Source: Pirellulales bacterium (GTDB lineage Bacteria; Planctomycetota; Planctomycetia; Pirellulales; PALSA-1355). Taken from it: a stretch of 64,000 nt of DNA. This document shows positions 57,197 through 63,492 of the stretch, piece after piece (position 1 is the first letter of the stretch; each line of letters opens with the position of its first letter). The notes under the pieces were generated by a model that had not been told where the DNA came from, searched no databases, and saw nothing but the letters and a program-made list of their open reading frames with translations. The DNA lies in assembly GCA_022844125.1 (NCBI GenBank), contig JALHMI010000001.1:186001-250000 (forward strand), in the 5' to 3' direction. Made by a program: the position numbers and the translations under genes.

Positions 57197-59251
<2,055 letters not shown>

Positions 59252-59330: not shown

Positions 59331-59360
59331 TTGAACTTTCCGGCTCTCCCTCCGTATAAT
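59331..59360 (+). promoter_or_regulatory. Sigma70-like promoter for a probably leaderless gene
   Basis: TTGAAC at 59331-59336 and TATAAT at 59355-59360 are 18 bp apart. The expected transcription start, about seven bases past TATAAT, falls on or next to the A of the ATG at 59367. There is no room for a ribosome binding site. Confidence 0.65.
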
Positions 59361-59366
59361 GACGGT

Positions 59367-59762
59367 ATGCGACCCCTCTCTCGCACTGCTGTGTCGATTT
59401 GCCTGGCGATCGTGGCAATGCCGCTTTCGCCGTGCGCGTTCTTTTCCAGCAATTGCTGCGGCACGGACCACTCGTCCAAGGCTGAGCCGGTTTCCGCCGA
59501 GCGCCCCTGCTGTGGCAAGCACACGGAGCCGAGCCGTGCACCCGTCCAGGGAGGTATCGACTCGTGTCAGCACGATTGCTGCAAGCTGAGCCCGTTTGTG
59601 CCGCCGGCCAATCCGGTAATGCACGAACCGCCACTGATGCAGGCGATGGTGGCTCTTCCTTCAGGAGTGTCTTCGGCCGTGAGCAGCCCGCGCGAATTCA
59701 AGCGTGACCTGCTGGCCGAAACGATACCGCTCAATCTTCTCCATTGCCAGTGGCGTAATTAA
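59367..59762 (+). CDS. Exported Cys-rich protein (leaderless)
   Basis: 131 residues. A signal peptide (RTAVSICLAIVAMPLSPCAF) is followed by CCGTDHSSKAE, PCCGKHTEPS and DSCQHDCCKLSP, a cluster of Cys and His suggestive of metal binding, and a more ordinary C-terminal half. The promoter at 59331-59360 puts the transcript start at the ATG. It is 115 bases ahead of a second Cys-rich exported protein. No known family. Confidence 0.72.
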   Translation: MRPLSRTAVSICLAIVAMPLSPCAFFSSNCCGTDHSSKAEPVSAERPCCGKHTEPSRAPVQGGIDSCQHDCCKLSPFVPPANPVMHEPPLMQAMVALPSGVSSAVSSPREFKRDLLAETIPLNLLHCQWRN

Positions 59763-59876
59763 TCGCGCCGCGCGCTTAGCTTATCGCGGAGTCATTCTCG
59801 GTAACCTGTGCGCACTTGCCGTGATTTGCTACTGGTTTCTTATTTGTCGAATGCCAATTCCATGGAGAGTATTCTC

Positions 59877-60239
59877 ATGTCTATGAAGATGTACACGGTA
59901 CTCGCGAGTGCTTTGCTTGGGGTAGCCGCGATTCTGGTTGCCACAACTTGGGCCGCCGAAAAGGCCCCTGAGGCGAAGAACTGTTGCGAAGCGGGACTGG
60001 CCTGCTGCAAGGATGGCGGCTCGGCGTGCTGTGCTGCTGAAGAGCGGCTCGGCTGCTGCGAGAAGGGCATGGCCTGCTGCGAAAAGCAGCTCGACTGCTG
60101 CTCGAGCCCGCAGTCATGCTGCGCCGAAGGCAAGGCTTGCTGCGAAGAGGGCAAGGCCTGCTGCGGCGCTGACGGAGCGAAGAATGCTCCGGCCAGCGAC
60201 GCGCCGAGTTGCTGCACGGCCCCGGCTGCTGCCGGCTGA
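59877..60239 (+). CDS. Exported CC-repeat protein, metallothionein-like
   Basis: 120 residues. A signal peptide (YTVLASALLGVAAILVATTW) is followed by ten Cys-Cys pairs in about 80 residues (NCCEAGLACCKDGGSACC and GCCEKGMACCEKQLDCC as examples), twenty cysteines in all. The spacers are short and contain Glu, Lys and Gly. GGAG precedes the ATG at 59877 by nine bases. A strong terminator follows. Metal binding outside the cytoplasm is the obvious guess; multiple disulphides are the alternative. Confidence 0.78.
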   Translation: MSMKMYTVLASALLGVAAILVATTWAAEKAPEAKNCCEAGLACCKDGGSACCAAEERLGCCEKGMACCEKQLDCCSSPQSCCAEGKACCEEGKACCGADGAKNAPASDAPSCCTAPAAAG

Positions 60240-60266: not shown

Positions 60267-60308
60267 GAGGGGCGCCCGAAGTTGTTTCGTGCGCCCCTCG
60301 TTCTTTGG
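60267..60308 (+). terminator. Rho-independent terminator of the Cys-rich gene pair
   Basis: A 9-bp perfect stem (GAGGGGCGC at 60267-60275 pairing with 60291-60299) followed by GTTCTTT. It lies 27 bases past the CC-repeat gene stop and ends the two-gene unit. Confidence 0.75.
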
Positions 60309-60326: not shown

Positions 60327-61091
60327 CTACATCGCCGTGGCGCCGCCATCGATAACCATCACCTGGCCGGTCATGAACGACGATTCGTCCGAGGCCAGAT
60401 ATAGGGCCCCCATTCCGATCTCGTCGATCTGGCCCACGCGCGGAATCGGCTGCGTGGCCTCAAGCTTCTTCACGTGACCTTCGTTTTTCCAGAAAAACTC
60501 GCTGAAGTCTGTCTGGATCAGGCCCGGTGCAATCGCATTTACGCGAACACCACTCTTGCCGAACTCGCAAGCCCAGGTGCGGGTCATCATGATCAGACCA
60601 GCCTTTGTGAAGCTGTAGAGCAGTCCGCCTGGCTGCGGGTGCAATCCGGCAATCGAGGCGATATTGATGATTGACCCCTTACCCTTCTTGATCATGCCGG
60701 GGACCGTGAGCCGCACGAGCCGCAGCGCCGCCTTGATGTTGACCTCGATCATCTTGTCGAGCATTTCATCGGTCACATTCAGCGAAGGGCCCTGGCCGAT
60801 GTTGGTGGCGCTATTGTTTACTAGAATGTCGGGCGTGCCGAACTCCTTCTCGACCGTGGCCACGAGCTTCTCAAGCTGATCGACGCGGCCAACGTGACAC
60901 TCGACTGGCAGAATCTTGCCAGGTAGATCTTTGTATTCGTTGGCGGTTTCTGCGAGCACTTCCAGCTTACGGCTGGCGATGGCCACGTTCGCTCCTGCGC
61001 CGGCGAGCCGCTTGGTGATTGCCTTGCCGATACCGCGTCCGCCGCCGGTAACGATGGCCACGCGGCCGTCAAGTTTGATGTCGTTGTACAT
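60327..61091 (-). CDS. Short-chain dehydrogenase/reductase (3-oxoacyl-reductase-like)
   Basis: 254 residues. [20 protein letters not shown] (cofactor site), [12 protein letters not shown] (NNSA in place of NNAG), [12 protein letters not shown] with the catalytic serine, and [13 protein letters not shown] with the YxxxK at about residues 159-163. NAD(P)-dependent; the substrate is unknown. The order on the minus strand is thioesterase then SDR, 81 bases apart, so the two may be one unit. Confidence 0.9.
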
Positions 61092-61688: not shown

Positions 61689-62145
61689 GGTTAACACGTC
61701 GCGGCGTAATTGGAAAGTGTTGGAGATTTGGAGAGATTGAATCCAGCCAACTTAACGCAGGAGCGAGCCGGCAACACCAAGGAAAGTTGCATTCAACGGC
61801 CGGGCGACGATCTTTCGATTCCGAAACAAACTTGCGGCGACGTAACCACGGTCGAGCGTGGCCAGAAATAGTGCACCGCCAAACGCGTTACTTTCCAGTA
61901 AGCCAACGCTGCAACTTTGCCGCACGCAGCTTAGGCGAGGCCTCATATCTCTCGCGAATCGCGGCGTTTGCATGTCCTGTACGGTATCCGCCTCGCTCTA
62001 GACGCGCTCACGGCGCGCGAAGTCTGCACGCTGGGAAGGCTTCCTTCCGCAACTAGCATGGACGGCGTTTGAGGGACGAGTTCGCCTGACGGCGTTCGTC
62101 GGACATCGCCGCCTCTTGGCCGGTCGCTGCAGGGAGAGTTCAGCC
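61689..62145. other. Intergenic region, no gene seen
   Basis: 457 bases between divergent genes. Several short frames exist, but none has a plausible start or family resemblance. The last bases hold the ribosome binding site (AGGGAGA) of the STN-like gene. Confidence 0.5.
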
Positions 62146-63492
62146 ATGGACCGCACGCGGAGCATTTGTGTTGCGTTGGTAGTCCTCATCCTGGGTTTCA
62201 TGTCGGCAAGCCTCGCACGCTTGCAAGCGGCAGCGCCAACACCGCGTCGCTCGACGTCCGATGCCGAGCAGGTCTGGCCAATTGATCAGGAGCACGACTC
62301 CGGCGGGCTGATCGAGTCGATCGAACAGCACAACAGGATCGTAACCCAGCAGGTCGAAGTTGAAACGGACATGGCGCTCCGTCATGCCAGGCAGATCATG
62401 CGAAGTGATCCCACGGCAGTGAATGAAGAACTCAAGCTGTTGCTGGGGCACGTGCTCCGAACGCCGGAATTGCGGACCGAGGTTCGGGCAACCTTGCGAT
62501 CGAAACTGGAAGCAGGTTTGCGGGAAGCATCGCGTTTCGGGGCCACAAAGGACATCCTCGACCGCGAGCAGCAAGAAGCGAGGGGCGCGGCTCTTGATCG
62601 GCTGCGCATTAGCCAAAATCTGGATCGCAAGCAAGAGAAACTTAAACAACTCTTGGACCGGTTTGACTCCCTGATGGACGAACGGCGATACATCGCGGCC
62701 GATGAAATCGGCGAAAGGGAAGTTGGCCGGCTCGCACCTGAGCTGCCCATCGCCCAGTCGGCGGCTCTCGTCGCCCACATGACTGGCGCCCGGCAGGCCG
62801 ACCTGGCGCTGCGCCTCGCGCGGCAGAAGGCGGTAATCGACACCTTAGGGACTGTGGAAGTCGCGATGATGCCCATGCCGGACGATCAGCCAATCGTCTA
62901 CCCGCTGGCCGACGAGTTTCAGGAACTGTCGACCCGACGTAGGCGGTACGCTTCAACCGATCTCAAACAACTGAGTCCGGCTGAAAAGAAACTCCGTGAG
63001 GCGTTGGAATCGCCCACCCAGATGGAATTCACCGAGACTCCGCTACAAGATGCAGTGGGCTATCTAAAGGACTTACATGGCGTCGAGATTCAACTCGACA
63101 CACGCGCCATGGAAGACGCCGGTGTGGGCACCGACACCCCGGTTTCCCGCGTACTCAACGGCGTCTCGCTGAAGTCCGCCCTACGGCTGCTGTTGGGCGG
63201 ATACGATCTAACGTTCATCGTGAAAGACGAAGTGCTACTGATAACGACTCAGGATAAAGCCGAGGCAGAGTTGGTAACCAAGGCCTACCCTGTCGCCGAC
63301 CTAGTGATTCCCGTTCGCTCGGGTCGAGGGATGGGTGGCGGAATGATGGGCGGGGGGATGATGGGTGGCATGGGCGGCGGTGGCATGGGCGGCGGTGGCA
63401 TGGGTGGTGGAATGATGGGTGGCAGGGGCGGCGGCATGGGCGGAGGCATGGGTGGCGGAATGGGCGGAGGCATGGGTGGCGGAATGTTCTAG
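62146..63492 (+). CDS. Exported STN/secretin-like protein with Gly/Met-rich tail
   Basis: 448 residues. A signal peptide (CVALVVLILGFMSASLARLQ) is followed by a helical middle (about 40-260). Residues about 285-395 read TETPLQDAVGYLKDLHGVEI and SLKSALRLLLGGYDLTFIVK, an STN/secretin N-domain-like fold. The last 50 residues are Gly and Met only apart from two Arg (GGGMMGGGMMGGMGGG style). AGGGAGA precedes the ATG at 62146. Seemingly not a full secretin: the barrel is absent. The Gly/Met tail could bind copper, or be a flexible surface tail. Confidence 0.78.
   Translation: MDRTRSICVALVVLILGFMSASLARLQAAAPTPRRSTSDAEQVWPIDQEHDSGGLIESIEQHNRIVTQQVEVETDMALRHARQIMRSDPTAVNEELKLLLGHVLRTPELRTEVRATLRSKLEAGLREASRFGATKDILDREQQEARGAALDRLRISQNLDRKQEKLKQLLDRFDSLMDERRYIAADEIGEREVGRLAPELPIAQSAALVAHMTGARQADLALRLARQKAVIDTLGTVEVAMMPMPDDQPIVYPLADEFQELSTRRRRYASTDLKQLSPAEKKLREALESPTQMEFTETPLQDAVGYLKDLHGVEIQLDTRAMEDAGVGTDTPVSRVLNGVSLKSALRLLLGGYDLTFIVKDEVLLITTQDKAEAELVTKAYPVADLVIPVRSGRGMGGGMMGGGMMGGMGGGGMGGGGMGGGMMGGRGGGMGGGMGGGMGGGMGGGMF

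Follow-up and report, generated by a model that had tools for sequence, protein, structure and literature searches.

In SecM and other Sec/YidC arrest peptides, as excerpts of the literature describe them (PMC10987492), the paused ribosome of an exported nascent chain exposes a downstream start site, as is proposed below for the product of gene A of a planctomycete locus; these peptides monitor export, whereas the Cys clusters of A suggest metal sensing, and A carries no RAPP-like sequence. Among leaders of metal genes, CutF and CruR each head varied metal genes (PMC9973294, PMC9426467). CutF, of the CutF-CutO system of Rhodobacter capsulatus, is a small exported protein with a Cys motif and a conserved C-terminus, encoded directly 5' of a metal-handling gene whose Shine–Dalgarno (SD) sequence is shielded by an mRNA stem-loop, and a metal-dependent pause has been proposed to open that stem-loop (excerpts of PMC9973294). 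CutF-like members have been reported mostly from Pseudomonadota and Bacteroidota, and the string 'Planctomyc' is absent from the main text of the same paper (PMC9973294). CruR, encoded upstream of bfrG in Bordetella pertussis, also has a Cys motif and a conserved C-terminus and heads copper operons, but it operates through Rho termination, with copper lowering expression, the opposite sense to that proposed here (excerpts of PMC9426467). A few CruR homologs in Planctomycetes are noted in that paper (PMC9426467), and an excerpted arrest-peptide survey lists LPPP leaders in other planctomycete orders.

The locus described here, genes A and B, lies in a 64,000-nt stretch of DNA from a Pirellulales bacterium (the window). 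As proposed, A works like CutF, yet it is not filed as a CutF member. The two share a small, exported-looking Cys-motif protein directly 5' of a metal-handling gene (putatively so for B), a conserved C-terminus and, for A–B by computation, a shielded downstream SD (PMC9973294, in part). Set beside the filters given in the excerpted CutF report, A has 131 aa (limit < 150 aa), B follows on the same strand at 114 nt (limit ≤ 1000 nt), and the A N-terminus is hydrophobic by eye where the filter specifies a signal peptide (PMC9973294). The CutF PP motif is missing from the last 15 residues of window A, AETIPLNLLHCQWRN, which end instead in an LHxLxCVWRC-stop-type motif; A is set apart from the CutF members for this reason, even though its size and downstream gene fall within the filters, and it is not DUF2946 either. 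PP does occur near the end of some A relatives, e.g. SPPLHVLQCVWRC. A further differs from CutF in having an anti-SD inside the codons of its C-terminal motif, a promoter in leaderless position and a CC-repeat protein as the downstream product. From CruR it differs in having no RAPP, so that the combination of CXXC and a C-terminal RAPP is absent, and assignment of A to DUF2946 (PF11162) was rejected, with no match in window A and 0/34 relatives matching at E ≤ 0.1. No A/B family was recognized in the openly licensed PMC papers searched, a scope in which absence is not proven. We put at roughly 60% the probability that A is a CutF/SecM-like exported nascent-chain sensor, likely of copper, whose paused ribosome frees the start site of B.

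Layout of the A–B unit

The features of the unit, all on the + strand, are listed below with the evidence on which each was placed.

59331–59336, +, −35-like hexamer TTGAAC (promoter scan, alignment with relatives)
59355–59360, +, −10 hexamer TATAAT, 6 nt from the gene A ATG, predicted leaderless mRNA (promoter scan, relatives)
59367–59762, +, gene A, exported-looking Cys-rich leader protein without an SD (translation, homologues)
59508–59582, +, conserved Cys cluster codons of A (CC48-49, C67, CC71-72), putative metal site (alignment)
59737–59744, +, anti-SD TTCTCCAT within the 3' end of A, codons 124–126, L-L-H (folding)
59739–59759, +, codons of the conserved C-terminal motif of A, LHCQWRN (family LHxLxCVWRC-stop), putative pause motif (alignment)
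59763–59876, +, A–B intergenic stretch, 114 nt, predicted structured (folding against shuffles)
59862–59869, +, ATGGAGAG, holding the SD of B (GGAG, 59864–59867), predicted to pair with 59737–59744 (folding)
59877–60239, +, gene B, exported-looking protein, ten CC pairs at spacings of mostly 7 residues (translation, alignment)
60267–60299, +, hairpin GAGGGGCGC...GCGCCCCTC, probable terminator 3' of B (hairpin folding against shuffles)

Upstream of the unit ligA ends at 59251, and downstream lies a convergent SDR gene (60327–61091), both named from reading of the translations. The strong terminator that the first-pass annotation placed at its end is borne out by the hairpin at 60267–60299, which scores a shuffle z of −3.2 and is followed by a short T-rich stretch; the consensus terminator scan omits it because the loop limit of that scan is 8. 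Further along the window, an ORF of 458 aa (62116–63492, +) looks exported and ends in a long C-terminal tail rich in Gly and Met (GGGMMGG).

Gene B comprises 120 codons (120 aa), and the initial description of its cysteines was exact: 20/20 fall within ten CC pairs, and the N-terminus has, by eye, a Sec-type look. Most CC positions are invariant in relatives, nine of the pairs being invariant or nearly so across 12 aligned rows. No Pfam or NCBIfam model matched B, metallothionein models included, and no Csp match was obtained, with PF03860 (DUF326) absent from the Pfam results and no PDB entry at E ≤ 0.1. Csp proteins are Cys-rich and store Cu(I), and bacterial metallothioneins are small and very Cys-rich. 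B resembles the former in its cysteine content and differs in arranging its cysteines as CC pairs about every 7 residues; it resembles the latter in being small and Cys-rich and differs in looking exported. By its composition B fits a thiolate metal-sequestering role, for which it is a candidate, and the exported CC-repeat family, previously undescribed, is a likely copper trap. Structure models of A and B were both of low confidence and uninformative (pLDDT 52). In two B homologues (L044:4001-4561 and L047:4013-4573) the CC domain occurs in tandem duplicate within a single protein.

Linkage of A to B and to other genes

Conservation in planctomycetes, raised as a question for the pair, is found for both the protein and its context. 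A search with B located 14 loci on named genome contigs, each of which is by its title from a planctomycete MAG, and B occurs in 73/397 genomes of the class (E ≤ 0.001). An A-like gene, defined as an ORF whose second- or third-last residue is W, with a Cys close by, lies directly 5' of B in 34 of the 35 distinct loci found with B as query, a count independent of selection on the A motif; the same rule is satisfied by 10/1079 other ORFs. Only L054 departs from this: its B is truncated and A is absent. Comparison across genomes thus shows A and B to be a unit, and in the three same-family genomes found, the pair adjoins the SDR gene as it does in the window.

A search with A gave matches at E ≤ 0.01 in 104/387 genomes of the class, many being weak. 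Forty lower-scoring A places outside the collected loci were fetched by choice, most of which reach the end of the profile, and in 26/40 the downstream gene encodes, on reading, a small Cys-rich exported-looking protein. Csp-like proteins follow A-like leaders in L124 and L145: that of L124 matches CSP3 (PDB 5fig) at E = 8.5e-5, Pfam DUF326 is below cut-off for L145 and absent for L124, and NCBIfam gave no match for either. A CusB-type adaptor with a heavy-metal-binding domain (HMBD) follows in L118, and L121 looks alike. YHS/TRASH-type proteins follow in L141, L143 and L155 (above cut-off) and in L138, L144 and L154 (below cut-off), with L156 resembling them by look alone; the genes downstream of A in L133 and L142 were left out of these assignments. 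Seven fetched places (L138, L141, L142, L144, L146, L151 and L155) were omitted from the promoter and pairing counts given below, and the A set that was kept leans toward the motif because several of the seven have off-pattern C-termini. In L138, L141 and L146, the A-like ORFs, which lie 5' of a TRASH/YHS-type or Cys-rich protein, have a shifted C-terminus (HVLRC, HGLRC and HVLRC, respectively), possibly a second C-terminal type.

These downstream genes bear on the hypothesis, made from the window alone, of a periplasmic metal-sequestering pair. Its metal-handling part is supported by the comparison, A-type leaders heading Csp-like, CusB-type and YHS/TRASH-type genes; the casting of A as a sequestering partner gives way to features of a cis-acting leader. 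The cell walls of planctomycetes are high in cysteine, which, with the exported look of A and B alike, would suit a B that is a disulfide-cross-linked, Cys-rich structural protein of the envelope, with A as helper and metal irrelevant. We hold this to be very improbable: leaders of the A type head copper-storage-like, efflux and YHS-type proteins, and the occurrence of B in the class is patchy for a wall component.

The conserved end of gene A

Gene A has 131 codons and encodes a 131-aa protein with 10 Cys and a hydrophobic N-terminus of Sec-type look (by eye). Pfam and NCBIfam yielded nothing useful for it, the one match being a chance-level hit to an unrelated viral family (E = 0.41). Conservation is concentrated at the C-terminus, where the last 10 alignment columns have a mean identity of 0.59 (0.49 without C127 and W129), compared with 0.16 for the middle. 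This alignment (A8) consists of 34 A rows, chosen by the rule of W second or third from the end with a Cys just before, and the invariance of C127 and W129, like the 56/59 count in the distance analysis, is partly by construction because of that selection. A genes found without the rule do vary, L016 ending in LYGVWRN and L015 in LHCVWII. The C127 codon varies synonymously (TGC 38, TGT 21 of 61).

The second regularity is one of distance. In window A the last cluster Cys lies 59 residues from the C-terminus, and across 59 A proteins the last Cys before the C-terminal 12 residues lies a median of 59 residues from the end (IQR 55–61), with 45/59 at 53–68 residues and 14/59 at 18–37. The C-terminal motif and this near-fixed distance are established by comparison. 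A conserved end joined to a distant Cys site by an unconserved linker of near-fixed length is, we infer, the arrangement required of an arrest peptide whose sensor is distant, and A is probably a cis-acting leader gene and not the sequestering partner of B.

A GC-rich stretch immediately 3' of the A stop codon (window 59748–59780, and the same place in L004, L005 and L009) is kept in the four closest genomes, where a hairpin over the stop codon is possible. As a switch, such a local hairpin was set aside, 0 of its 9 pairs covarying in the four closest genomes.

Predicted pairing of the B Shine–Dalgarno with the tail of A

In the A–B core, the SD of B is predicted to pair with the last 63 nt of A at a mean probability of 0.785, with 73% of 30 loci above 0.7; 160 control genes at matched distances, drawn from the window's genome only, gave 0.17 and 8% (Mann–Whitney p = 5e-14). 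The 30 loci are those remaining of 34 after removal of L043 and L055, which have no usable start or SD call, and of L050 (0.00) and L081 (1.00), both outside the non-redundant ATG set; in L050 the SD pairs with the gap and not with the A tail. Because the conserved peptide itself favors CTC, partners were swapped among loci. With one locus per cluster (22), 0 of 20,000 permutations were as strong as the own pairs, and in full folding the own tails (0.88) exceeded swapped tails (0.54) in 21/21 loci of the 22 representatives. The predicted specificity of the pairing is established by this comparison.

Codon choice points the same way. CTC is the Leu codon used at the anti-SD in 22/43 cases, compared with 115/610 for Leu in the rest of these genes (p = 5e-6) and 8/40 at the neighboring conserved Leu (p = 0.006). 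Against the pairing, CTCC stands exactly at −24 in only 18/41 loci having GGAG, and covariation at the level of bases is modest. In the following codon, the wobble base makes a Watson–Crick pair with its partner in 11/18 cases (G-C 7, T-A 3, C-G 1), 6.2 being expected; at the five further positions examined, the counts match expectation or lie close to it.

Outside the core the pairing is less regular. A divergent set (31 of 33 loci scored) has a mean of 0.48, with 13/31 above 0.7 and a permutation result of 93/5000, and six loci of genus g146 range from 0.22 to 0.58. Before genes other than B the values are mixed (L121 0.99, L154 0.70, L156 0.06, L143 0.04, L133 0.01, L118 0.00), and before the two Csp-like genes they are 0.35 and 0.39. 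The SD lock is firm by computation in the A–B core and unproven for other downstream genes, a limit set by the weaker pairing of the divergent set and by the spread of 0.00–0.99 before Csp-like, CusB-like and YHS genes.

A lock of this kind needs, by itself, nothing more than plain translational coupling, in which ribosomes translating A melt the anti-SD/SD helix and fix the ratio of B to A with no sensing by the nascent chain, A then being a periplasmic metal-binding partner, as its Cys clusters would allow. Such coupling leaves unexplained the conservation, with synonymous changes, of C-V-W-R-C 3' of the anti-SD, the near-fixed 59-residue distance over an unconserved linker and the presence of A ahead of unrelated metal proteins, and we consider it unlikely. 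Less probable again, in our judgment, is control of the CruR type, in which the C-terminus of A would govern termination of transcription in the A–B gap, by Rho or otherwise, and not access to the SD. That gap, 104 nt at the median, is indeed long, and over 31 loci it is predicted to be structured (mean z −2.2, with 17 loci below −2, relative to shuffles and not to other genes), as in CruR according to excerpts of that report (PMC9426467), and some loci have no SD pairing to the A tail; locus-specific SD pairing would not be expected of such a mechanism, and a scan covering loops up to 8 only found no intrinsic terminator in the A–B gap of the window.

A proposed nascent-chain sensor

The reading that we prefer, an exported nascent-chain sensor, can be set out as a series of steps. 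The main product of gene A would be regulation: translation of its leaderless mRNA would begin at the initial AUG, and the protein would be exported as it is made. With the ribosome at the A C-terminus (LHCxWRC-stop), the Cys clusters would be some 59 residues from the peptidyl-transferase center and hence near the periplasmic mouth of SecYEG, a chain threaded through the ribosome and SecYEG reaching the periplasm at roughly such a distance. Copper, or another thiophilic metal, bound to the clusters would then hold the ribosome at or near the A stop codon. Measured to the last base of the A stop codon, the anti-SD lies ~17–24 nt upstream; a ribosome with this codon in its A site would, given the size of its footprint, cover the anti-SD or crowd it. 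The SD of B would then be free, and the exported CC-repeat protein would be synthesized as a trap for the metal. If metal is absent, the ribosome would depart, the anti-SD would pair with the SD and B would be off. The pause, the identity of the metal and export during synthesis are what we infer from the comparisons above, and the metal-on sign is favored because B is likely a metal trap.

If correct, the proposal extends nascent-chain metal sensing of the CutF and CruR kind to Planctomycetia, in leaders that differ in C-terminal motif and have no Pfam family in common with them. Peptide and RNA selection would overlap within one set of codons, a clean case of its kind, and what leaderless initiation contributes to a regulatory leader would become testable. 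We give even odds to the broader generalization that planctomycetes possess a class of metal-sensing arrest leaders with a new C-terminal motif, LHxLxCVWRC-stop, partly leaderless, in which the arrest-motif codons double as the anti-SD of the next gene, so that a single short stretch is under selection as peptide and as RNA switch, and which control a new family of exported metal traps of the CC-repeat type as well as further copper proteins.

The predicted leaderless start of gene A

The gene A promoter, TTGAAC and TATAAT separated by an 18-nt spacer, matches consensus at 10/12 positions, and since the TATAAT ends 6 nt from the ATG (59367), the first transcribed base is predicted to fall on or next to that ATG. 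This is the sole promoter match in the 4 kb scanned; with 1.1 sites expected in shuffles, the match alone is not beyond chance. An own-genome control was assembled from 464 kb (the window and 20 further stretches; 317 crude gene calls, 396 candidate ATG starts), in which SD tetramers peak 6–11 nt 5' of the ATG. A −10 matching at at least 5/6 positions and ending 5–8 nt 5' of the ATG precedes 2/396 starts, and with a −35 of at least 4/6 only gene A is left. The first-pass annotation had read here a near-consensus promoter with transcription starting on the ATG of A, unusual beside genes with good SD sequences. The contrast with SD-bearing genes holds up, and the promoter claim stands in its placement, unique among the 396 starts, while the hexamer match taken by itself remains within chance.

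Relatives were compared for the same feature. Among the gene A homologues of the three same-family genomes, two have TATACT or TAGAAT 6 nt 5' of the ATG and the third a weak TAAAAG. In other genomes, a strictly placed −10 (5–8 nt from the ATG) precedes 13/60 A genes, a minority, against a shuffle mean of 0.67 and maximum of 4 in 200 rounds; starts were picked blind to the promoter, the sample was reduced from 67 A genes to 63 with a usable ATG and 60 non-redundant ones, and the strict count supersedes a looser one of 32/67. No such −10 precedes B starts (0/31), and an SD is present in 28/31 B genes versus 8/60 A genes. As sequence, the leaderless placement is genuine, and it occurs in A genes elsewhere more often than in shuffles. 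Signs of leaderless or RPS1-type initiation in Planctomycetes, represented by one genome in the tables of the excerpted report, have already been published (PMC5397173), and leaderless genes in the phylum are therefore not new as such. A hairpin between ligA and the gene A promoter is not clearly beyond shuffles (z −1.7). In L045, L046, L053 and L061, the regions upstream of A share GAACTTT in the −35 region and CGTA(T/G)AAT at the −10, possibly the signature of a specific sigma factor or regulator.

Finally, the window's own genome carries two small Cys/His ORFs with SRAPP near their ends (L086:1486-1878, −, and L088:1345-1845, +, on contigs C13 and C12, respectively). Their similarity to DUF2946 is weak, with Pfam E values of 0.009 and 0.007 that are below cut-off and at a level (E ≤ 1) where 9/14 control genomes also match. 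Each lies 5' of a prepilin-like ORF that resembles DUF1559, one with a His-rich loop, and the two are possible CruR-like metal leaders in the same genome.
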